Translations under genes and position numbers: made by a program
The notes under the pieces: generated by a model
What the model was told of the DNA's origin: nothing
What the model saw: the letters and a program-made list of their open reading frames with translations, nothing else
Databases searched by the model: none
Origin: a virus
IMG/VR virus record: IMGVR_UViG_3300040801_001492
Coordinates: 1-64,000 of that record
Direction: 5' to 3' (one strand)
DNA: 64,000 nucleotides
Shown: positions 17,837 through 54,395 of the stretch, in pieces
Layout of the letters: every line of letters begins with the position of its first letter
Numbering within the stretch: the first letter of the stretch is position 1

Positions 17837-20800
17837 TTAAATTAATTTTTCGTAATCTTTTTCTCCCCTGCTATAACGAAAATCGAATTTTTTCTTAAAC
17901 TTAGACCTATAATTAAAGCCTCCTAGTCTATTAAAAAAGTTATCCTTAAACCTATCATTAATCTTATCTTCAACATTTCTATTGATATATTTAATTCTAT
18001 CTTCTCTTAATACCATACACATACCCATAGCTGATACACGGTCAAAGTTACCATCGGGGTCCCAGGCTATAGCTTCTCTAAGATAGCCTAACGATCGTAT
18101 AGTATGTAAGTTAAGCAGTTGAGGTTTTTCTATCTTATTACCTTCCTCATCATATTCATCTTCTTCTAAAGTATATGCAGAACTAATCATCCAGTCAGCC
18201 TGTAGTTTACGACCCCAGGCATTAACAAATTTACTTGCTGTTGTGCCTTTTGAATTATGGGTAACAATAAAATCATTTATTAGGTAACATTCTGATTTAT
18301 TATTTACTGTAATACACTTAGCTTTTTCCCTATGAGAATATTTAATATCTATAATAGGTATTCCTAACATCCTGGCTTTTAATTTACCAGAAGGATTTTT
18401 AGAAAGTTTTTTTAATTTTCTAGGTAATTTAAATAAATTCTCATTAGTCCATATTTTTATAGCATAAGAATCATTACACTGTATATAGATATCTCCTTTC
18501 TTATAACCGGCCTTATTTAAATAAATCTTACTGTGATATCCTAAACTTCTAGCAATAAAGCATACATCTTCTGCTAATTGTTTTGAAATAGTATTAAACA
18601 CTGGGGTACCTTGTCCAACATATCCATCTGTATCTAATAATCCTTTTAATATATTAAGTCTAATTTCAGATGTATTAAATTTATATATATTAGGAATGAA
18701 TTTATTTATAGAAGTTTTATTATTTAAGTTTAATTTTTTTAAATATGATTCGGCATTTGGAATCCTTATATAACAATGTCTATCATCGCTTGGTGTAGTA
18801 AATTTATATATATTAGGAATGAATTTGTTGTATTCTGTTAAATCACAATAGTTAGAAGTAAATCTAACAGTATTACCTTTAGTACTTTTAACACTACCAT
18901 CTCCTAACAATAATCCAAGTGTATATGGGTCTATAGGTACATCCTGTTTATTAAATTCTACCTTAGAACTAGAAGGAATCAAATATTCATGTGTTGAATA
19001 TCCTGATTTGTGTAATCTTTTATATTTATAAAATAATTCCTTAGTAGATAATGTACTTCTTTGTTTAGTGCTTGGTTTTAAAACATCCCAAAGGTGATTA
19101 TTTGAAGCATATACTATTCTTCCGTCAAACAAAGTAATTTTATAAATATCAGTAAAATCATCAAAAGGAATATCTACTACTTTTGTAGATTGTCCATTAT
19201 CAGCGAATATTATATCTCCTATTTTAATATCTTTCCATTGTTTTTTACCAGAAGGAGTGTATATATATTCAGAATAAGGATGAGCTGTGTTGCCGAATCC
19301 TGCTCCTTTAATTAAGTCCATATCACGTAGTATCTGAGGTGTATCAGATAGATACTGCAGCAGATTCATATTCTCAGCATAGGCAAAGAATCCTTTAATA
19401 TTATTCTCATAGTTAGCTTGTGCATTATAATAACGTATAAGGCGTAAAGCAGTATCATAAAAATCAGTTGCTCTAGGTGGTCTACCTGAATACTCAGCTA
19501 CTATCCTATCTGTCCATAGGTCGAAAATAAAACATGAGCCTAATGATACTGTATAGGTTCCTTCATCACTATCAATAGGGTCTACTCCCGCTATATACCT
19601 ACCAAAAGGTACTCTACCTTCACTATCTCTCTTAGGTAACTCAAATATCTCAACACAGCCTGTTCTATCTATATCATCCTTAATAGGAAATTCACGTAGC
19701 ACAGGATGATTTTGCTGCATATCCCAATCTATCTGACCATCGGCTTTATTCTTTAATGTACCTACATAGTGAGAAGCAGTAAATTTATTAATATCTACTA
19801 CTGCTTCGGCTACCATATCCTTCAAGTCAACAACAGGAAATATATTACCTTCCCTACGCATCACGGCGTCCTGGGGCGTAATACACATTTCGGCCTTATG
19901 CTGCACTAAAGCGTTAGTATCTGTAGAACCATATTTTATCTTTATACGCTCTTCTAAGATTCTTAACAAAGCAGCAACAACATCTGAGTTACCGTTCTTA
20001 TCATAACAACCTGTACGGTTAAGATATGCGGGGAAGAAAAAAGCACATTTAGTTTGTCCTATGGCATTCTTATCATATATATTAGGTATAGCTCTTACAT
20101 GGTAACCACCTGGGCTATAAAACAAAGTTTCTGCTCCTTTGAAGTCAGCAGATTCTGTACCTCCTGTACCTCCCCCAATAAGCTGTCCTACAGATATATC
20201 ACCATCTTCTACTGAGTGTCTTGCTATCTCCCATGACTGTAATAGATAAGGATTTTTACCAAACTCTTCCCAATAAACTAAGGGGCCTCGTTTACCACGA
20301 GCCTTATCGGGGTCACCCTGTGTAGTAACACCTATAACACTATTTTGCGTACCTTTAACTAATCCTTCTCTGTTTTTATACCCCATAACCCACTGCATCT
20401 CATTATATGAGTCCTTGAGCTTTAACCTTGACCATGGAGTATGTTCAGCACACCAGTTAACATGGTGTACAAATTTATTTAATATACCATCTTTAGTAAG
20501 ATATTCTTTCTCATTAGCTATAGCAAAACAGGTTACATTATTAGTATTAATAGAAGATTCTCCGAGAATAAATGCTCTTGCTAGGTCTGAACCTGATTTA
20601 TAAGAAAATCCAACACCACGTCTCTTAAGCATAGCTACATGCTCACCTTCTTTACGTGCCTGGTCTTTATAGTGATAATATAGATAATCACCATCATAAA
20701 CATGAGGAAAATCTAATATTTTTGTACCAGACTTACCTGACTTATTTATTTTAGAAGTAAGTAGTATAGGACTATAGTTAAGATAAAAATAGTACGAGCC

Positions 20801-21172
20801 TGGTATCCATTCGCCGTCCTCACGTACTAATCCATCACGACACCTACGAGCTTCTTCTTTCCAAAAACGTGCGTAGCTTGAGTTGGGATGGGTATTAGGG
20901 TGTATTCTAGTAAATGTTTTATATTGTTGAAAATGTATAGCTGCCTGTCTAAAATAATCCATATCCTCTAATATATGAGGATTAGATATATCAACCTCTA
21001 TCTTACCTTCTTCATCTTTTGGTAAATCAGCTATACGTGGTCTATTAGGACTAATAAGCCTTTTAACAAACTCAATAGTATCTATAACATCAAATATTTC
21101 TTCTTTTAGTTCTTTAGATAGTTCTTTTAACAGAGTATCATCTAAAGGTGTTTGTATTTCATTTAGTTTCAT
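17837..21172 (-). CDS. terL: Terminase large subunit interrupted by a LAGLIDADG intein
   Basis: This is an 1111-residue precursor. The exteins are residues 1-629 and 974-1111 (about 767 together, normal for crAss-like TerL). An ATPase-like segment (KRRGVGFSYKSGSDLARAF), a Walker B-like GPLVYWEEFG and the nuclease start AGVDPIDSDEG are visible. The intein spans residues 630-973 and begins with Ala (AHPYSEYIYTPSG) instead of Cys or Ser. It ends THN before Ser974 and carries two LAGLIDADG motifs (LGLLLGDGS and LKGLLDTDGYV). After splicing, the junction is GNT-SKGTTASK. TerL packages DNA by ATP hydrolysis and cuts it. The start overlaps the HNH gene by 14 nt. Confidence 0.9.
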   Translation of the reverse strand: MKLNEIQTPLDDTLLKELSKELKEEIFDVIDTIEFVKRLISPNRPRIADLPKDEEGKIEVDISNPHILEDMDYFRQAAIHFQQYKTFTRIHPNTHPNSSYARFWKEEARRCRDGLVREDGEWIPGSYYFYLNYSPILLTSKINKSGKSGTKILDFPHVYDGDYLYYHYKDQARKEGEHVAMLKRRGVGFSYKSGSDLARAFILGESSINTNNVTCFAIANEKEYLTKDGILNKFVHHVNWCAEHTPWSRLKLKDSYNEMQWVMGYKNREGLVKGTQNSVIGVTTQGDPDKARGKRGPLVYWEEFGKNPYLLQSWEIARHSVEDGDISVGQLIGGGTGGTESADFKGAETLFYSPGGYHVRAIPNIYDKNAIGQTKCAFFFPAYLNRTGCYDKNGNSDVVAALLRILEERIKIKYGSTDTNALVQHKAEMCITPQDAVMRREGNIFPVVDLKDMVAEAVVDINKFTASHYVGTLKNKADGQIDWDMQQNHPVLREFPIKDDIDRTGCVEIFELPKRDSEGRVPFGRYIAGVDPIDSDEGTYTVSLGSCFIFDLWTDRIVAEYSGRPPRATDFYDTALRLIRYYNAQANYENNIKGFFAYAENMNLLQYLSDTPQILRDMDLIKGAGFGNTAHPYSEYIYTPSGKKQWKDIKIGDIIFADNGQSTKVVDIPFDDFTDIYKITLFDGRIVYASNNHLWDVLKPSTKQRSTLSTKELFYKYKRLHKSGYSTHEYLIPSSSKVEFNKQDVPIDPYTLGLLLGDGSVKSTKGNTVRFTSNYCDLTEYNKFIPNIYKFTTPSDDRHCYIRIPNAESYLKKLNLNNKTSINKFIPNIYKFNTSEIRLNILKGLLDTDGYVGQGTPVFNTISKQLAEDVCFIARSLGYHSKIYLNKAGYKKGDIYIQCNDSYAIKIWTNENLFKLPRKLKKLSKNPSGKLKARMLGIPIIDIKYSHREKAKCITVNNKSECYLINDFIVTHNSKGTTASKFVNAWGRKLQADWMISSAYTLEEDEYDEEGNKIEKPQLLNLHTIRSLGYLREAIAWDPDGNFDRVSAMGMCMVLREDRIKYINRNVEDKINDRFKDNFFNRLGGFNYRSKFKKKFDFRYSRGEKDYEKLI
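18254..19285 (-). mobile_element. Intein with homing endonuclease inside terL
   Basis: This coding segment corresponds to TerL residues 630-973 (344 residues). Block A is Ala-start with TPSG, and KIGDIIF follows. Two LAGLIDADG motifs, LGLLLGDGSVKS and GLLDTDGYVGQ, mark a DOD homing endonuclease. The end LINDFIVTHN is a standard C-terminal splice block with Asn last and Ser next. First-residue Ala inteins splice by a variant route in which +1 Ser is attacked directly. Both motifs keep their acidic residues, so endonuclease activity is likely intact. Confidence 0.85.
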
Positions 21173-46261: not shown

Positions 46262-46299
46262 GTAGAATATTTTCTCAGTATAATTATATAACCATTGAA

Positions 46300-46333
46300 A
46301 GTAGGCTCCTATATTGGGGCCTACTTTTTTTAT
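46300..46333 (+). terminator. Intrinsic terminator after SSB
   Basis: AGTAGGC pairs with GCCTACT over 7 bp with seven T after it. It ends the helicase-ATPase-SSB transcript. Confidence 0.8.
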
Positions 46334-46343
46334 CTATCTATAT

Positions 46344-47393
46344 ATGGATAAATCAATTATTGATTTTAACGATCCTATCTATGCTAATAGGTCTTTTGTT
46401 ACTAAAGAATCTTTATTGGAATATGTCAGTGAATATGATATTCTTAAGAATTATTATCCCGATATTGAACTAGGCACTGTAATCAATAGTCCTCTTCGTA
46501 AAGATAACCATCCTAGCTTTAGCTTATTCTATTCAGAAGCTAATGATTGTATTCTTTATAAAGACCAGGCTACAGGTGATATAGGTAATATCTTCGATTT
46601 TATACAAAGACTATACAATATACCCAGTTATGCTGATACCTTAGAACAGATAGCTACTGATTTTGGTATAGATAAATATTTTATTATCTCTAAACCAAAA
46701 ACTAAAAAACTTAAGGCAACTAAAGCATATCACACGTCTTATAAAGAAACATATACGTATGAGCTTAAGATAGTAGCTAGAGACTGGAAAGAATCAGATT
46801 TAGTTTTTTGGGATTCATTTGGTATATGTCTGGACACATTAAAACGATTTAATGTAGTACCTATAGAAGGTTATTATTCTAATAACCAAGGTACTTCTAT
46901 TTATGTTAATACAAGGGATTTAAGCTATGCTTTTTTAGAATATAAAGATTTACAACTTACTTATAAGATATATAGACCATTTCAGAGTAAAGAACGTAAA
47001 TGGCGAACTAATCATCCTTATGGTGTTCATCAGGGATATAACCAGTTACCTCATATAGGTGAACATCTGATAATCACCAAATCATTGAAAGATGTAATGT
47101 CTTTATATGATGTAGCATCTATTCCTTCTATTGCTATACAAGCAGAAACTAATTCTATTAAGCCTCAAGTTATGAATGAATATATCAGTAGGTTTAATAA
47201 TGTTTATACACTCTTTGATACTGATATAACAGGATTAGAAAGTATGCTTAAATATCTCAAAAAGTATAATATTATAGGTATTAGTATTCCTATAAAAAAA
47301 TATCCATTAGCAAAAGATTTTAGTGACTTAGTAAAATTTTATGGTAGTGAAAAAGCATTATATTTCTTAAATAACAAATTAAAAATTTCTTAA
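46344..47393 (+). CDS. DnaG-like primase
   Basis: I use the ATG at 46344 (MDKSIIDFNDPIYANRSFVT), because the longer reading starts inside the terminator; it gives 349 residues. The N-terminal segment with NSPLRKDNHPSFSLFY, then GDIGNIFDFIQRLY, is typical of phage DnaG-type primases without the usual CHC2 Cys set. The Toprim fold follows with LIITKSLKDVMSLYDV, then TLFDTDITGLESM (DxD metal site). It makes primers for the DnaB helicase complex. The KSLKD variant of the usual EGxxD motif is a minor oddity. Confidence 0.75.
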   Translation: MDKSIIDFNDPIYANRSFVTKESLLEYVSEYDILKNYYPDIELGTVINSPLRKDNHPSFSLFYSEANDCILYKDQATGDIGNIFDFIQRLYNIPSYADTLEQIATDFGIDKYFIISKPKTKKLKATKAYHTSYKETYTYELKIVARDWKESDLVFWDSFGICLDTLKRFNVVPIEGYYSNNQGTSIYVNTRDLSYAFLEYKDLQLTYKIYRPFQSKERKWRTNHPYGVHQGYNQLPHIGEHLIITKSLKDVMSLYDVASIPSIAIQAETNSIKPQVMNEYISRFNNVYTLFDTDITGLESMLKYLKKYNIIGISIPIKKYPLAKDFSDLVKFYGSEKALYFLNNKLKIS

Positions 47394-47395
47394 TT

Positions 47396-48100
47396 ATGGT
47401 AACAAAACTTATTTGTAAGACGCCTAAACATTATCAACTTACTGAAGGTAAAGTATATGAAGTAGTTGAATTTGTTAATGGTGAAACAAGTGTATTATTA
47501 ACTAATGATTTAGGTGTTCTAAAACGCTATTCCATGAAACTTTTTGAAAAAGAAGTAAGTGTAGATACTCTGTTTGATGAAATAATAAAAGAACTTAATT
47601 TTAAAATGCCTGTTACTCGTCCTCAAGGCAATTCTTCAGTAATTTACTTTGAAATTTTAGGACAACCTAATAATGGATTAACCTTATTTCGCTCACAGAC
47701 AAGTTGTAGCGTAAAAGATATAGAAGGTATAAATTCATTGATAGGTAGACTAAGAAGACTTATAGATCAGTATTTAGATCATAATGATAAGGTTAAACTA
47801 TTATCTGCTAATGACCGATATGAATTAAAGTCTATGTTAGGTACAGCATTGGCTGATAAAATAAACTGGACTGATATAATACAAGAAATAAAAGCAGTTA
47901 CCTTTTATTTTGTTACTACTCACTATGATAAACAAGATGGTGAAGATGTTTTTGGAGAAAATTTCAGAAATGTTTTAATGAAAACATTGCATTCTATATC
48001 TACTACACGTAACGAGAATATTAAAAATATAATAAGAAGAACTAAAAATTATTCAGGTCAAAATCTTATTGCATTAGTAATTCCAAATCCTATAAAATAA
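47396..48100 (+). CDS. Protein with barrel N-terminus, unrecognised
   Basis: This 234-residue protein starts MVTKLICKTPKHYQLTEGKV, a barrel shared with the 174-residue protein at 33267. It continues with TVIYFEILGQPNNGLTLFRS-type strands and helices (SLIGRLRRLIDQYLDHNDKV, LMKTLHSISTTRNENIKNII). It stands between the primase and the amidotransferase and may belong to either block. Confidence 0.45.
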   Translation: MVTKLICKTPKHYQLTEGKVYEVVEFVNGETSVLLTNDLGVLKRYSMKLFEKEVSVDTLFDEIIKELNFKMPVTRPQGNSSVIYFEILGQPNNGLTLFRSQTSCSVKDIEGINSLIGRLRRLIDQYLDHNDKVKLLSANDRYELKSMLGTALADKINWTDIIQEIKAVTFYFVTTHYDKQDGEDVFGENFRNVLMKTLHSISTTRNENIKNIIRRTKNYSGQNLIALVIPNPIK

Positions 48101-48107
48101 TAAAATT

Positions 48108-48896
48108 ATGAAAATTCCGAAGATTGGTATTCCATTTTGGAGAATGGGAGATAATAGTTTAGGTGTAACATTGCCTTACTATACATATTTTGAACGTTTT
48201 GGTTATATTGTAGTGCTTAATCCCATGGTTGAACCAAATCAAGAATTATATACTGATATTGACCTATTAGTATTGCCTGGTGGTGCTGATATACTACCAG
48301 AAAGGTATAATCATATGCCTAGCCTGTTTACAGGTAAGCCGGACTTGATAAAAGATTATTTTGATATGCATGTACTTCCTAGGTATATTGCTGATACAGA
48401 TATTCCTATATTTGGTATATGTAGAGGTTTTCAATCTATAGCTGTACATTTTGGATATCCATTAATACAGGATATGTATCATGAAACTAATAAACCCGAT
48501 AAGAGGTGGGAAAATGTACATAAGCTGTCTGTTAATTCAGCTTTTGTAGAAGAGATGGCAAAATTTAACGAAAAAATAGAAGATAATTCTGATAAAATAT
48601 ATGATTCACTATATAATATTAAATTACCTTTTAATCGTGAATATGACAAAATTAAGAAAAGAAATCTTATTACTTTTTCAGTTAATTCATTGCACCATCA
48701 GGCTGTATCTAGTACACAGATAGAAGAAGATAAATCTTTTAATATTATAGCCAAGTATCAAGGTGCTTTTGCTCCTTTTATTGAAGCAATGGTTTCTGAA
48801 GATAGCAGAATAGCAGGAGTACAATATCATCCTGAAGAGCTGTTTGACGAACCAATAGCTAAGTATTTAATTTATAAATTATTATATAAAGTATGA
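48108..48896 (+). CDS. Class I glutamine amidotransferase (peptidase C26-like), first gene of the amide cluster
   Basis: This 262-residue protein has the oxyanion-strand motif LLVLPGGADI, the nucleophile elbow GICRGFQS with Cys105, and His241/Glu243 in QYHPEE: a full catalytic triad. The pattern matches gamma-glutamyl-gamma-aminobutyrate hydrolase (PuuD) types, which cut gamma-glutamyl amides. In the cluster it may remove or transfer gamma-glutamyl groups. It overlaps the GGCT-like gene by 4 nt, and the following five genes are adjacent or overlapping. Confidence 0.85.
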   Translation: MKIPKIGIPFWRMGDNSLGVTLPYYTYFERFGYIVVLNPMVEPNQELYTDIDLLVLPGGADILPERYNHMPSLFTGKPDLIKDYFDMHVLPRYIADTDIPIFGICRGFQSIAVHFGYPLIQDMYHETNKPDKRWENVHKLSVNSAFVEEMAKFNEKIEDNSDKIYDSLYNIKLPFNREYDKIKKRNLITFSVNSLHHQAVSSTQIEEDKSFNIIAKYQGAFAPFIEAMVSEDSRIAGVQYHPEELFDEPIAKYLIYKLLYKV

Positions 48897-49270
48897 AAAA
48901 AGAAAGAATTTTTGTTTATGGTACCTTACTAGAAGGTTGTGGTAATCATCAATATTATCTGCGTGATGCTAAGAAACTAGGCGAACATATAACAGATTCA
49001 CAATTTACTATGCTACATTTAGGTGGTTTTCCTGGAGTTATAGGAATAGGTAATACAGCTATTAGAGGTGAAGTATATGAGATTACTGAAAATGAGTTTA
49101 GGGATATAGATGGTTTAGAAGGATATAATCCTAATAATCCTTCTTATGGTCTGTATGATAGAACACAAATAAAAACTCCATGGGGTAATGCATGGATATA
49201 CCTATATAATCATCGTGATAATCATCATTTTAATAAAATAACCTCAGGATCATGGAGAAACAAAGACTAA
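48893..49270 (+). CDS. Gamma-glutamylcyclotransferase-like protein (AIG2/GGCT fold)
   Basis: This 125-residue protein has the signature VYGTLLEG (Tyr9-Gly-Thr-Leu12) near the start and a catalytic Glu76 in IDGLEGYN. The end has WIYLYNH, as in GGCT proteins. Enzymes of this fold cyclise a gamma-glutamyl amine to 5-oxoproline, releasing the amine. It is thus another glutamyl-handling step. It overlaps the ATP-grasp gene by 19 nt, so translation is coupled. Confidence 0.85.
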   Translation: MKKERIFVYGTLLEGCGNHQYYLRDAKKLGEHITDSQFTMLHLGGFPGVIGIGNTAIRGEVYEITENEFRDIDGLEGYNPNNPSYGLYDRTQIKTPWGNAWIYLYNHRDNHHFNKITSGSWRNKD

Positions 49271-50046
49271 GAAAACGCCGTGTACAGATACGTACAAGAA
49301 ATCATTCAGCTAGACCATTAAGGGGTAATATAATGGCTGACCGTTCAGCTATTGTACGATTAGGTTCACTTACTACATTAGAGGATGCCTATACAAGAAA
49401 GAAAAATCTTAATAATATTGTTGAGATAAATACTGTGGAAGCTGTACAGAACAGTAGAGATAAATTTGCTATGAAAAAATGTTTTGATAATGCAAAAATC
49501 TCTCATGCAGACTATTACATTGATTCTACTAAAATAGATGATAGTATAGATTATCCTATTGTAGCTAAACGTAGATTTGGTTTTAAAGGTAGAGGTATGT
49601 ATCTACTATTTTCCAGAGGTGAATTTTTAAACTTTATGGAAAAGCAATATGATAAAGACTACTTCTTTGAAAAATTCTATAATTATGCACGTGAATATAG
49701 GCTACATATATGTAATGGTCAAATATTTATGGTGTGGCGTAAGTTACGTAAGAAAGATGCTGAAGAAAGGTGGTATTTTAATGATTCTAACTGTAACTGG
49801 GTAAGTGAACAGCATGAGTTATTTAACAAACCAGTTAACTGGAAAGATATATGTAAGCATAGTATAAAGGCAATGAAAGCTGTTGGATTAGATTTAGGAG
49901 CTGTTGATGTGAGGGTACAATCTGATAAGCACGAAACACCGTTATTTATTATTTGCGAAGTAAATAGTGCTCCTGCCTTAGGTAATAGGGGCATTGAAGA
50001 ATATAAAAAACAAATCCAAAATTTTATTGATAATTATGAAAAATGA
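49252..50046 (+). CDS. ATP-grasp carboxylate-amine ligase (RimK-like)
   Basis: This 264-residue protein has the ATP-grasp pattern: YPIVAKRRFGFKGRGMYLLF (ATP-binding Lys and Gly loop), FFEKFYNYAREYRLHI (ATP-binding strand), DLGAVDVRV, then IICEVNSAPAL with Glu-x-Asn for Mg. The enzyme joins a carboxylate to an amine via an acylphosphate. The basic N-terminal 25 residues (RLRKRRVQIRTRNHSARPLR) may bind a charged substrate; a second ATG at 49333 (MADRSAIVRLGS) is possible. It overlaps the COOH-NH2 ligase gene by 11 nt. Confidence 0.85.
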   Translation: MEKQRLRKRRVQIRTRNHSARPLRGNIMADRSAIVRLGSLTTLEDAYTRKKNLNNIVEINTVEAVQNSRDKFAMKKCFDNAKISHADYYIDSTKIDDSIDYPIVAKRRFGFKGRGMYLLFSRGEFLNFMEKQYDKDYFFEKFYNYAREYRLHICNGQIFMVWRKLRKKDAEERWYFNDSNCNWVSEQHELFNKPVNWKDICKHSIKAMKAVGLDLGAVDVRVQSDKHETPLFIICEVNSAPALGNRGIEEYKKQIQNFIDNYEK

Positions 50047-50932
50047 TATTTTTATTTTTGATAGTATAGGATCAGACCCTGAGTTTTTCTTAACTGATGA
50101 GAATGGTAAATATGTTTCTGGTGCTTTAGTCACTACAGGAGGTAAGCGTAAGCCGGAAAAATTAGATAAATTAGGTTTTAATATCTTTACTGATAATCTG
50201 GCAGTAGAAGGTAATATACCACCAGCATCAACATTTGATAAGTTTAATAATAATATGCTTAAGCTTATTGATTATATAGGTGAAAGAGCAGAACAGAAGA
50301 ACCTTAGTGTAGCTCATGTTGGTCAGGCTGAGTTTAGTACAGAAGATTGTAATAGTATACAAGGACAGGAATTTGCCTGCTCAGCATCATTATATGCATG
50401 GCAGGGTATATATTATAAAACATTTGATGCTGTATCTATCAATGCCTGTCGTACTACAGATTTTTCTAGAGATAGAATGAGAACAGCTGGTTTTCATATT
50501 CATATAGGCTATCATGTAGAAAATAAAACTTTTACTGATCCTTTAGTATATGACTTACTAGTGGCTAAAATATTTGACCTGTTTGTTAGCTTACCTACTC
50601 TTGAGATACAGAATAAAGAAACGTTCAGAGAAGAAAATTTTGGTTTATTAGGTAACTTTAGAAGCAAAAGATATGGTGTTGAATGTAGGTCGTTAAGCGG
50701 TTATTTTACTCATCCTACTTATTATAAATGGCTGTGGACACAGATACAACACATGTTTGAATATATCAACTCATTAAGTAAAGATGAGCTTACAGAGCTT
50801 CTGGAACTGCATATTTTTGATGCTCCTAATAAAGCTATGGTAAAACAAGAGTTTGAGAAATTTTCACCAGAGACTCCTGATATGATACATCACTTTTCTA
50901 ATTTAATTAATATTAATACTTATGCAATATAA
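50036..50932 (+). CDS. COOH-NH2 ligase type 2 (glutamine synthetase-like fold)
   Basis: I use the ATG at 50036 (MKNDIFIFDSIGSDPEFFLT) instead of one 42 nt upstream inside the previous gene, giving 298 residues. Conserved features are GSDPEFF, DNLAVEGNIPPA, HIHIG around His154 and His156, and YGVECRSLSGYF. This is the phage COOH-NH2 ligase family, a glutamine synthetase-like fold that ligates a carboxyl to an amine with ATP. With the ATP-grasp ligase it gives the cluster two ligases of different fold. It overlaps the class II amidotransferase gene by 11 nt. Confidence 0.85.
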   Translation: MKNDIFIFDSIGSDPEFFLTDENGKYVSGALVTTGGKRKPEKLDKLGFNIFTDNLAVEGNIPPASTFDKFNNNMLKLIDYIGERAEQKNLSVAHVGQAEFSTEDCNSIQGQEFACSASLYAWQGIYYKTFDAVSINACRTTDFSRDRMRTAGFHIHIGYHVENKTFTDPLVYDLLVAKIFDLFVSLPTLEIQNKETFREENFGLLGNFRSKRYGVECRSLSGYFTHPTYYKWLWTQIQHMFEYINSLSKDELTELLELHIFDAPNKAMVKQEFEKFSPETPDMIHHFSNLININTYAI

Positions 50933-52916
50933 TAAATACAACCTTATTCTTCTTGTTATTGTTGTAATCTTCTATATCATGTTGCCTGAAGATATAACAG
51001 CTGCGTGTGGTTTATTTGCTTTCTTCGGTTCTAATCCTACCAAATATTTTAGCTGGAAAGATTTTAAGATATTAGGTGTTTTTAATGATGCCAGAGGTAA
51101 TGATGCGTGCGGTATAACAACAAACGATAATGTACAGAAATATTGGCATCAGGGTATTGTTGAGTTTAAGGATGCTATAATAAAGAAAGAGATAATACAC
51201 AATTTTACTGTTAAAGACCATATCTTAGGACATACAAGAAAAGCATCTAGTGGAGGTAATTGTATAGACACAGCACAACCTTTAATATTCTATAAAAACG
51301 ATGGCCCCCCATTATCGAAAGCATATAAAGATGAAAATTATAGGCTTTGGTTGAAAAAACAGCCTAAGAAAAGTATTGTTTTTAGTGGTATACATAATGG
51401 TACAATACATAATATAGATAAGTTAGCAGAAAAATATCATGTTAAAACGAAAGATAAGAATGACACTGCTATGTTATTTGAGATACTGTTTAAAGGACAT
51501 TATGAAGTACTAACTGAATATGAAGGTACAGCATCATTAGTTTTTTATGATTACTATACCGAACAGATATATATCTGGAGAGGCGAATCCTTGGCTTACA
51601 GCAGTAGTGTTGCTGTTTCTGAAGAAAGACCATTATTTTATTATGCCCCTGCTAAGAATAATTTCTATTTATCTTCTTTAAAAAACTCATTACTATTTAT
51701 AGGAGCTCCTGAGAACCATGCAATGGAAGTACCTTCTAATACTCTGTTTGTATATCATAAAGGAAAACTGGTAAGTAATGTAGCTTATGATAGGTCGAAA
51801 GCTAAACAGGTAGTTACATATTCTTCTACAGGTAATGCATGGAATTACAGAGATAGTAATAATTCATGGGATAGGTATTCTGCAAGACATTATACGCCTG
51901 CTATACAAGGATTTCATAATAATAAGTATGGTAATAATAATACAACAGATAAGCTACGTAAAGATGATACTAAGCGTCTTTATCTTGTAACATCTGGTTC
52001 ATTCTCTAAAGGAGCTTATAGGCTAATAAATGAGAATGTAGCAGCTATTGCAATAAATAACCCACGCAGATTAGCTTTTTGTAAAGGTAGATATTGGTAT
52101 GGTAATAATTTAGCACATGGTCTATTGCCTGTTAATACTTTAGGTATCATACCACATAAAAAACAATTACCTCTAGCTATTTCTAAAGCTAAACTATATG
52201 GGTTTATTGAAGGTGTACTGGTAGAAGATTTAGCATCATATTTTATTATGCAAGATACTTATAATAACATATTAGCAGATTTAATTGAAGCAGATAAGAT
52301 TGATATAAATGATATTATTCTAAAAGAGAGGGATTTACTAGAAAATTTAGCTTTCTTTACTGACCATTTTACTGATAGTATAGTATCAGTAAGTGAGATT
52401 GAAGCAGTTAAGTTTTTAAACAATCGTAATGAATATCATTATTATACAGGTGTTACACATCCTAAATTCTCTAATAGGAAATATGCTTTTGAAAATGGTG
52501 ACCTTAATTACATAGAATATATGAGTAATATATCTTATGATCTTAACCATACACAGGAAGATGTTACTGAAGTATTGGATTATATAGAAACACCTATGGA
52601 ATTTTATGCAGAGAAAGGACAAGCTGAATCAGATATAGATGCTATAGGTAGAATACTTATACAACAAAAAGACAAAGATATACCTATTTCTTTCTTTACT
52701 AAAGTTTTAAGAGGTGAAATAGAATATGATATAAATACTAGTCTTAAAGAAGAATTTCTTTTAGCTAAATCAATATATTATAAAACATTCTATTCACATC
52801 TAAAATTTAATAGATGTGATAAAGACCAGTGTAAAGACTGTTCTTATTATGAGAAATATTTAGAATATTGTATACGTTGTGTACAAGAATCAAGTTTAAA
52901 AATTGTTACAAAATAA
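50922..52916 (+). CDS. Class II glutamine amidotransferase with long C-terminal extension
   Basis: This is a 664-residue protein. The catalytic Cys is Cys29 in ITAACGLFAFFGSN, followed by LGHTRKASSGG and HNGTIHN (His158-Gly160), the Ntn-hydrolase signatures. The Cys must become N-terminal, so residues 1-28 or, with the ATG at 50979, nine residues must be removed. Residues 8-20 are hydrophobic (ILLVIVVIFYIM), like a membrane segment or signal. The C-terminal 440 residues have no known domain and end in a Cys-rich knot (CDKDQCKDCSYYEKY, then CIRC). It would feed ammonia from glutamine to an amidoligase. Confidence 0.8.
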   Translation: MQYNKYNLILLVIVVIFYIMLPEDITAACGLFAFFGSNPTKYFSWKDFKILGVFNDARGNDACGITTNDNVQKYWHQGIVEFKDAIIKKEIIHNFTVKDHILGHTRKASSGGNCIDTAQPLIFYKNDGPPLSKAYKDENYRLWLKKQPKKSIVFSGIHNGTIHNIDKLAEKYHVKTKDKNDTAMLFEILFKGHYEVLTEYEGTASLVFYDYYTEQIYIWRGESLAYSSSVAVSEERPLFYYAPAKNNFYLSSLKNSLLFIGAPENHAMEVPSNTLFVYHKGKLVSNVAYDRSKAKQVVTYSSTGNAWNYRDSNNSWDRYSARHYTPAIQGFHNNKYGNNNTTDKLRKDDTKRLYLVTSGSFSKGAYRLINENVAAIAINNPRRLAFCKGRYWYGNNLAHGLLPVNTLGIIPHKKQLPLAISKAKLYGFIEGVLVEDLASYFIMQDTYNNILADLIEADKIDINDIILKERDLLENLAFFTDHFTDSIVSVSEIEAVKFLNNRNEYHYYTGVTHPKFSNRKYAFENGDLNYIEYMSNISYDLNHTQEDVTEVLDYIETPMEFYAEKGQAESDIDAIGRILIQQKDKDIPISFFTKVLRGEIEYDINTSLKEEFLLAKSIYYKTFYSHLKFNRCDKDQCKDCSYYEKYLEYCIRCVQESSLKIVTK

Positions 52917-52922
52917 AATATA

Positions 52923-54395
52923 ATGACAGCATATACAAAAGATATAGACGCAGTAGTTACTACCGTACAAGGAAAGAAAACCTTACGCAAATATTGTCGT
53001 TATATAGGCAAAGAGTATCATGAGATTAATGTAGATTGTTTTAAAATTAATGGTACATGGTATAGAACTAAAGGTGATAAAATTATTTATGATTATGAAC
53101 TATATAAATGGAGACTTAAATCAGATGCTCCTTTTGTAAGAGGTGTAATTGATATTCTACCTAATAATGAATATCAATACGGTCATTTTACTCCTTTGAA
53201 AGGAAAAAATATTGATATTATGGTAGGTAAATCATTATATAGAATAATGACTGGTATAGATATATCATTGATAGAAAAAGGTAGCCTTATTGAAGGTCGT
53301 AATGGTGTCTTCTATTCAGCTGAAATAAAAGATTCTTTTAAAAAAGAATTAGACCAGTATGTTAATATTGGTGGAAGACAAGCATCTTTTTATAATATAT
53401 CATGGGATTATAGCTCTGAATATAATATACCTGAATTTCAAAATGTATTTAGTAATACAAAACTAAAAGGTAAACTATATAATAATTATTATAATTATCT
53501 AAAATATACTTTCGGGATTGAGTTTGAAACAGATAATGGTGCTATTCCTGAGAGGTATCTTAGACCGATGGGTTTAATACCTTGTAGAGATGGTAGTATA
53601 GGTGGTTTCGAATATGTTACTGTACCGTTATATCAGGAGAAAGGTATACAGGCTGTACATGAGCACTGTAAATTATTATCTTATTTTTGTGTTATCAATA
53701 AATATAATTCCGTACATCTTCATCTAGGAGGTTATCCTAGAACAAAAGAACATGTTGTGGGATTATATAGAATGTTAACATTTTTACAGGACGATATATA
53801 TAAATTATTTCCTTCTGCATATAGAAATACTAGTTTATTTAAAAGACGTTCTTATTGTGAGCCTTTAGCTTATGTACCAGGTTCGCAAGATATTGATAAC
53901 TCATTAAGTAATATTATTGCAAGATTAGGAGGACGTTATGATGGTACTTTACCAGAAGGTCAACATCATCCTATGGATTTTACAGGTGAACATAAGTGGC
54001 AAATTAGTCCTAGATATAAAATAATAAATCTTATTCCTCTAATCTGGGGTAATAGAGGTACTGTCGAGTTTAGAGTACACACACCTACTATAGATTTTAA
54101 TAAAGTTATTTATTGGTTATTTATATGTTCAGCTATTTTACAATATGCAGAACAAAAATATATGAAATTTACTGTACCAACAAATAATTTTCAAAAATCA
54201 GTATCGTTATCTAAGATTATGAAAACTGTTTATCCTCTTGATATAGCTAATAAGATTATTGACTATATAGATGTTAGGACAAAATACTATGCAAATGGTA
54301 ATGATCCTTCAGGTGAACACGAAGTATTAGATGAGACTAAGCTTAGAACACTTCCTGTTAATAATATTAACCCTTTAATTAGAGTATATGAATAG
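52923..54395 (+). CDS. Amidoligase (PF12224-type)
   Basis: This 490-residue protein carries the amidoligase core in the second half: FGIEFETDNGAIP (Glu200 and Glu202 metal ligands), then GSIGGFEYVTVPL, NSVHLHLGGYP (His pair), and GTVEFRVHTPT. This is a glutamine-synthetase-like family that makes amide bonds, often on proteins or peptides. The first 190 residues are a separate mixed domain (CRYIGKEYHEINVDCFKING). It starts 6 nt after the class II amidotransferase gene, and its stop overlaps the next gene by 8 nt. Confidence 0.85.
   Translation: MTAYTKDIDAVVTTVQGKKTLRKYCRYIGKEYHEINVDCFKINGTWYRTKGDKIIYDYELYKWRLKSDAPFVRGVIDILPNNEYQYGHFTPLKGKNIDIMVGKSLYRIMTGIDISLIEKGSLIEGRNGVFYSAEIKDSFKKELDQYVNIGGRQASFYNISWDYSSEYNIPEFQNVFSNTKLKGKLYNNYYNYLKYTFGIEFETDNGAIPERYLRPMGLIPCRDGSIGGFEYVTVPLYQEKGIQAVHEHCKLLSYFCVINKYNSVHLHLGGYPRTKEHVVGLYRMLTFLQDDIYKLFPSAYRNTSLFKRRSYCEPLAYVPGSQDIDNSLSNIIARLGGRYDGTLPEGQHHPMDFTGEHKWQISPRYKIINLIPLIWGNRGTVEFRVHTPTIDFNKVIYWLFICSAILQYAEQKYMKFTVPTNNFQKSVSLSKIMKTVYPLDIANKIIDYIDVRTKYYANGNDPSGEHEVLDETKLRTLPVNNINPLIRVYE

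Follow-up and report, generated by a model that had tools for sequence, protein, structure and literature searches.

A hydrophobic leader before the catalytic cysteine suggests a membrane start for the class II amidotransferase of a conserved six-gene phage cassette

What do six adjacent phage genes, all predicted to encode enzymes that form or cut amide and gamma-glutamyl bonds, act on, and where in the infected cell? The question is raised by a stretch of viral DNA of 64,000 nucleotides (positions 1 to 64,000 of the IMG/VR virus record IMGVR_UViG_3300040801_001492, which has 101,445 bp), here called the window, in which the six genes lie on the + strand between positions 48108 and 54395. The cassette itself is already known, having first been predicted over 15 years ago, and one member, a COOH-NH2 ligase, is found in hundreds of phages, whose hosts are as diverse as Escherichia, Pseudomonas, Aeromonas, Vibrio, Cellulophaga and cyanobacteria, but hardly anywhere outside phages. 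What stands out here is an N-terminal leader on the class II glutamine amidotransferase (GAT-II), a physical hint of the cellular site at which the cassette acts. As overall best explanation, to which we give a chance of roughly 40%, we propose that the cassette forms and then edits amide or gamma-glutamyl bonds, with GAT-II starting out at the membrane. The enzyme and its leader are located as follows.

50922 to 52916, + strand: GAT-II, a class II (N-terminal nucleophile, Ntn) glutamine amidotransferase with leader, 664 residues (Pfam PF13522 GATase_6, 2.5e-8)
50922 to 51005, + strand: hydrophobic leader of 28 codons, MQYNKYNLILLVIVVIFYIMLPEDITAA, immediately 5' of the catalytic Cys codon 51006-51008; of a leader family found in 45 loci, with a helix at residues 2-20 in the model

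The original prediction had picked out Cys29 as the class II nucleophile and the residue is indeed conserved, yet the 28 hydrophobic residues that precede it had been overlooked. A class II (Ntn) enzyme depends on a free Cys at its N-terminus, so to serve as nucleophile Cys29 has to end up as the first residue; Ntn hydrolases arise as precursors whose self-cleavage frees the nucleophile (PMC9140057). For comparison, about 215 loci were fetched from IMG/VR with amidoligase, GAT-II and ligase profiles and, together with the window and four annotated phages, grouped into 163 non-redundant clusters. Among 144 GAT-II loci, the Cys comes right after the start Met in 87 and stands behind a leader of 22-32 residues in 45, the window included (27 or 28 residues in 30 of the 45). 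The leaders follow one layout, namely Met, about 17 hydrophobic residues, often K-P-K, then N-x-L-x and the Cys: all 45 are hydrophobic, 38 carry Leu at -2 and, mid-helix at -16, His or Gln is found in 20 of the 30 leaders of 27-28 residues. Net charge is +1.7 after the helix versus +0.1 before it (38 loci versus 2), which is the reverse of an export signal and suggests that the N-terminus would face out and the C-terminus in, with a cytoplasmic C-terminal domain. As a rule, no comparable segment is seen in the other five cassette families.

Superficially, a hydrophobic stretch followed by Cys resembles a lipobox, so that the leader might be a lipoprotein or secretion signal and the amidotransferase might act in the periplasm. 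However, a classical lipobox has a small residue where 38 of the 45 leaders have their Leu at -2, 18 of them have Asn, Tyr or Phe at -1 (contrary to signal peptidase I rules) and positive charges come after the helix rather than before it. Moreover, a lipid on the Cys would mask the catalytic thiol, even though GAT-II retains its other catalytic residues. With no match to a lipobox or AXA site and no positive n-region, a lipoprotein or Sec signal was rejected and a periplasmic amidotransferase appears most improbable to us.

A start-site artefact was rejected as well, as no start codon lies directly before the Cys in the 45 loci and the leader is under purifying selection, with an omega (ratio of nonsynonymous to synonymous substitution rates) of ~0.23 in four independent pairs of relatives versus 0.05 in the next 20 codons. 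As a control, at least 26 open codons upstream were found in just 4 of the 87 Met-Cys starters, two of which resemble leaders. Distances to the ligase gene differ too: measured from the ligase stop, the median is 10 nucleotides for a leader ATG and 2 nucleotides for a leaderless Met-Cys start, and the window has its leader ATG at 50922, in an 11-nucleotide overlap with the end of the upstream ligase gene. When L119 and L120 are set against their close relatives L103, L107, L109, L111 and L115, it is exactly the leader that is absent, so that the ATG and the TGT of the Cys adjoin. The leader trait requires 23 changes on the GAT-II tree, and well-supported branches force no fewer than 12 of these; the pattern is most simply read as repeated loss of an ancestral leader, albeit from a tree that cannot separate gains from losses. 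Judged from these comparisons, the leader is almost certainly translated. Its removal to make the active enzyme is probable, because leaderless relatives start with Met-Cys.

Propeptides are familiar in this enzyme class: in Bacillus subtilis PurF, removal of a propeptide creates the N-terminal Cys nucleophile. PurF and other class II amidotransferases with propeptides have their fold in common with the window GAT-II, but the PurF propeptide is ~11 residues long and has no membrane helix, whereas the phage leader is hydrophobic and spans 22-32 residues. If our reading is true, a transmembrane propeptide would be a new mode of control for class II amidotransferases. In the AlphaFold2 model of GAT-II, the helix at 2-20 is accompanied by a confident Ntn domain and by a second, beta-rich domain (~375-533). 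By Foldseek, the Ntn domain matches PurF, asparagine synthetase (AsnB), GlmS and EgtC; the beta-rich C-terminal domain has no solved match, the Foldseek matches listed all running through the amidotransferase domain. Unlike enzymes of the PurF/GlmS/AsnB type, the phage GAT-II lacks a fused synthase domain (phosphoribosyltransferase, SIS or PP-loop), with Pfam showing GATase domains only. EgtC, the Ntn hydrolase of the ergothioneine pathway, has the GAT-II fold and hydrolyses a gamma-glutamyl amide; it differs in having ~230 residues, no such leader and another pathway. No description of the GAT-II leader was found in the papers we searched, a limited library that is not proof of novelty.

The remaining five genes of the cassette are these.

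48108 to 48896, + strand: C26, a class I glutamine amidotransferase-like gamma-glutamyl hydrolase, 262 residues (Pfam PF07722 Peptidase_C26, 2.9e-26)
48893 to 49270, + strand: GGCT, a gamma-glutamyl(amine) cyclotransferase, 125 residues (Pfam PF06094 GGACT, 6.4e-22)
49252 to 50046, + strand: ATPG, a RimK-like ATP-grasp ligase, 264 residues (PHROG 2599, 1.1e-28)
50036 to 50932, + strand: LIG2, the phiEco32-like COOH-NH2 ligase type 2, 298 residues from its ATG (PHROG 3815, 4.6e-38; Pfam PF14395, 2.3e-6)
52923 to 54395, + strand: AMIDO, an Amidoligase_2 protein (glutamine synthetase-like ligase), 490 residues (Pfam PF12224, 2.1e-9; PHROG 2443, 3.9e-20)

Successive genes overlap by 4, 19, 11 and 11 nucleotides and, before the last, leave a gap of 6 nucleotides, so the description of six adjacent genes in one direction, overlapping or at most 6 nucleotides apart, was accurate. 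The six family names were likewise borne out by Pfam and PHROG searches, ATP-grasp by PHROG only as no Pfam family was reached for that protein. All Pfam matches named here exceed Pfam's own cut-offs (27.5 bits versus 25 for LIG2 and 38.1 versus 22 for AMIDO). None of the catalytic residues that had been named is lost in the family alignments, where C105/H241, E76, E236-x-N238, H154/H156, the GAT-II Cys and E200/E202 are invariant. The C26 triad Cys105-His241-Glu243 is invariant among relatives, as are the YGTL of the GGCT motif VYGTL together with Glu76, Asp219 and Glu236-x-Asn238 of the ATP-grasp ligase and, in 45 GAT-II sequences, Cys, Arg, His-Asn-Gly and Asp. LIG2 keeps GSDPE, His154-x-His156, Glu216 and Arg218 (numbered from ATG 50036; the open frame reaches upstream to TTG 49994), while AMIDO keeps Glu200, Glu202, His265, His267, Glu382 and Arg384 behind an N-terminal domain of ~190 residues and unknown kind. 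The nearest solved chains are Lin1909 (3fij) for C26 and YtfP (1xhs) for GGCT, the Glu column being different in E. coli YtfP; LIG2 has no solved relative by sequence, and weak profile matches tie the ATP-grasp protein to cyanophycin synthase and D-Ala-D-Ala ligase. Taken as predictions from sequence, the enzyme classes and their assignment to one cassette can be held with very high confidence.

Linkage of these genes is far beyond chance and near-obligate. We counted it in 42 independent clusters that were found via the COOH-NH2 ligase alone and had at least 6 kb on each side: within 10 kb of LIG2 lie GAT-II in 41, the amidoligase in 41, ATP-grasp in 38, C26 in 33 and GGCT in 24, and all 188 of 188 neighbouring cassette genes share its strand. 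Among the 163 non-redundant loci, all six families are present in 64 and at least four in 128. Gene order is conserved across phages in two dominant forms, LIG2-GATII-AMIDO (crAss-like phages and others) and LIG2-AMIDO-GATII (the phiEco32/LUZ24 kind). Ligase matches occur in 221 named phage records, with Escherichia and Pseudomonas phages foremost, while 84,980 bacterial and archaeal genomes yielded only 4 ligase relatives, all on contigs of metagenome-assembled genomes with other cassette genes. An IMG/VR scan with the window ligase as a single protein gave no match, and an alignment-based search was needed; at the DNA level, the phage search returned no near relative of the window. The idea of a joint pathway that makes and trims such bonds is supported by families, alignments and very strong linkage; the original interpretation as a whole is supported in part.

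That similar families are known in phages, as the original prediction had it, is true but understated, for the same cassette is listed in phi14:2, LUZ24-like and phiEco32-like phages. Four or five of the families occur together in phi14:2, cr108_1, LUZ24-like phages and phiEco32; Lbo-JY46 has the full six. Closest in layout is Cellulophaga phage phi14:2 (Crassvirales, Steigviridae), whose genes g037-g041 encode GGCT, ATP-grasp, LIG2, GAT-II and amidoligase after a primase, in the order of the window. Its GAT-II has a hydrophobic leader as well, on which we found no remark in the accessible literature; it differs in that no C26 lies in the cluster and that the proteins are ~25-38% identical to those of the window. 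Leptolyngbya phage Lbo-JY46 resembles the window in its six families on one strand but has three C26 genes, a COOH-NH2 ligase before ATP-grasp and a GAT-II that starts with Met-Cys. The cassettes of phiEco32/LUZ24-like phages share LIG2, amidoligase, GAT-II and ATP-grasp with the window, but their order is LIG2-AMIDO-GATII-ATPG, extra unknown genes precede the ligase and, unlike that of the window, the GAT-II of phiEco32 starts at the Cys. For the LUZ24-like phage UFV-P2, COOH-NH2_lig, Amidoligase_2, GATase_6, ATP-grasp and AIG2/GGCT are listed (PMC3890496). Papers citing Iyer et al. 2009 give the proposed role as cell-wall modification or superinfection exclusion (PMC11318856).

Against this background, we envisage the following scheme. 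The ATP-grasp enzyme and the two ligases of the glutamine synthetase/glutamylcysteine synthetase (GS/GCS) type would activate carboxylates via ATP and join Glu-like groups, amines or ammonia. GAT-II would first be tethered to the membrane as a proenzyme on the cytoplasmic side; once the leader is removed, most simply through Ntn self-cleavage, the N-terminal Cys would be exposed, and ammonia would then be freed from glutamine beside the membrane. C26 and GGCT may cut gamma-glutamyl groups, which could serve as a protecting group or reflect reversal or trimming of a modification. The likeliest acceptor would be a membrane-bound component of the envelope, such as a lipid-linked peptidoglycan precursor with a carboxylate to be amidated; this could alter the envelope during infection, for instance by blocking later phages. 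Four options for the substrate had been considered (wall, protein, small molecule, DNA), none of which is proven, and the leader shifts weight to a target at the inner membrane: hydrophobic and placed right before the Cys, it favours a target close to the membrane, for which a cell-wall precursor would qualify, without proving one. A membrane start also fits an envelope precursor better than it fits a soluble metabolite, a tagged protein or DNA. Still, an envelope target is a tentative proposal, and the step from the membrane to a peptidoglycan precursor is a guess. The narrower view that GAT-II is a zymogen with a transmembrane-helix propeptide, activated and released by self-cleavage, with a helix module often gained or lost and with ammonia set free at the inner membrane for the ligases to amidate a lipid-linked envelope precursor, seems rather doubtful when taken as a whole.

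Several points weigh against the proposed scheme. The leader of the window is atypical in having no Lys after the helix and an acidic 'PED' in place of 'KPK'. If translation began instead at an inner ATG, 50979, the propeptide would have 9 residues and no helix; ATG 50922 is nonetheless favoured as the start because the leaders of the nearest relatives of the window GAT-II, L063 and L064 (97% in the Shimodaira-Hasegawa-like approximate likelihood-ratio test, SH-aLRT), have no nearer Met. Many close relatives do without a leader (the at least 12 changes on the tree), so the reaction must be able to proceed without tethering. Neither the C-terminal domain of GAT-II nor the N-terminal one of the amidoligase has an assigned function, and a profile comparison of LIG2 with the amidoligase was not significant (hhalign probability 2%), so that their shared fold rests on Pfam. 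Finally, the cassette lies among replication genes and not beside lysis or envelope genes.

Another reading is a soluble small-molecule pathway. Here, the ligases would build a gamma-glutamyl-protected amine or short peptide, GGCT and C26 would deprotect it at the end and the metabolite would act on the host or on defence, much as gamma-glutamyl protection is used in the metabolism of butirosin (BtrJ/BtrG) and putrescine (PuuA/PuuD). C26, GGCT and the EgtC-like fold of GAT-II are all of types known to cut gamma-glutamyl bonds, and many loci have two or three C26 paralogues and some have two GGCT genes. Yet the cassette showed no recurring gene recognisable as one for a carrier protein, transporter or tailoring enzyme, and a membrane leader on one enzyme only is left unexplained, which makes such a pathway unlikely to our minds.

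Tagging of a protein is suggested by the placement of the ATP-grasp enzyme in the RimK-like PHROG 2599: together with the ligases, it would attach Glu or other residues to a protein of host or phage, with the hydrolases trimming the tag. Protein-tagging ATP-grasp systems usually need one ligase, however, and this leaves two extra GS-type ligases and a glutaminase without explanation; nor was a substrate protein recognised inside the window cassette. Although modification of host proteins has been proposed for related phage ATP-grasp ligases (PMC4431377, PMC7824862), we regard this as quite unlikely for the cassette.

As for the genome, the source phage is crAss-like (Steigviridae-like): its portal, terminase and major head protein match phage families, and the major head protein is nearest to crAss-like phages, e.g. 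cr85_1, phi14:2 and PhiCrAssBcn. Upstream, the operon includes two further genes outside the cassette core.

46344 to 48100, + strand: DNA primase (PHROG 12622, 1.5e-53) and an open reading frame of 234 residues (47396-48100)

A terminator-like hairpin (46297-46328) lies 5' of the primase and none was found on the + strand inside the cassette; promoter-like matches in the region are as frequent as expected from shuffled sequence. The six genes are best explained as one early, co-transcribed phage cassette, downstream of which follow an exonuclease, ribonucleotide reductase and DNA polymerase. Because of this setting among replication genes, near primase, exonuclease, polymerase and ribonucleotide reductase, a nucleotide or DNA target has to be weighed, the cassette then making an amide- or amino-acid-decorated base or nucleotide for replication. 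In cr108_1 and phi14:2, the gene directly after the amidoligase encodes a uracil-DNA glycosylase, and a family like it recurs near the cassette in 43 loci; but crAss phages generally carry this glycosylase (the cr108_1 record refers to phiCrAss001 for it). Furthermore, no hydroxymethylase, 7-deazaguanine enzyme or like nucleotide-modification gene appeared among the open reading frames scanned, none of the six proteins has a DNA-binding domain by Pfam and the membrane leader would go unexplained. DNA or nucleotide modification is therefore very unlikely in our estimate.

Further observations concern the make-up of the cassettes and their surroundings. In many loci (L074, L085, L103, L111, L116, L119, L199 and others), a single cassette has C26 in two or three paralogues, GGCT in two copies or a further match to the ligase or amidoligase. 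A second, mostly shorter class II amidotransferase that starts Met-Cys-(Leu/Ile/Val)-Ile follows the amidoligase in L133, L135, L138, L142, L158, L160, L163, L167, L168 and L213. Near the cassette there is also a fast-evolving extra family of 230-330 residues (e.g. L067:7111-7914, L001:4147-5136 and L001:5146-6048), which lies at most 300 nucleotides upstream of C26 in 40 of 47 copies and, in 31 sequences, has one invariant Cys and near-invariant Phe, Arg, Glu and His. Its model is confident (predicted local distance difference test, pLDDT, of 85) and matches no solved fold, the significant structural relatives being proteins of crAss-like phages only. As an explanation for the window this family was rejected, since it was not detected in the window's genome. 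Just upstream of the Lbo-JY46 cassette (L003:145-2676) lies a phosphoribosyl pyrophosphate synthetase, preceded by the nicotinate phosphoribosyltransferase PncB.

In the window itself, the open reading frame of 234 residues at 47396-48100, immediately 5' of C26, has relatives in 27 loci by iterative search, one of which (L159) adjoins the ligase in its own cassette. Elsewhere, on the - strand, the large terminase reading frame (17837-21172, 1111 residues) very probably carries an intein, since it contains a LAGLIDADG/Hom_end segment at ~834-911 and its residues 635-979 match profiles of unrelated primases, helicase-loaders and terminases.

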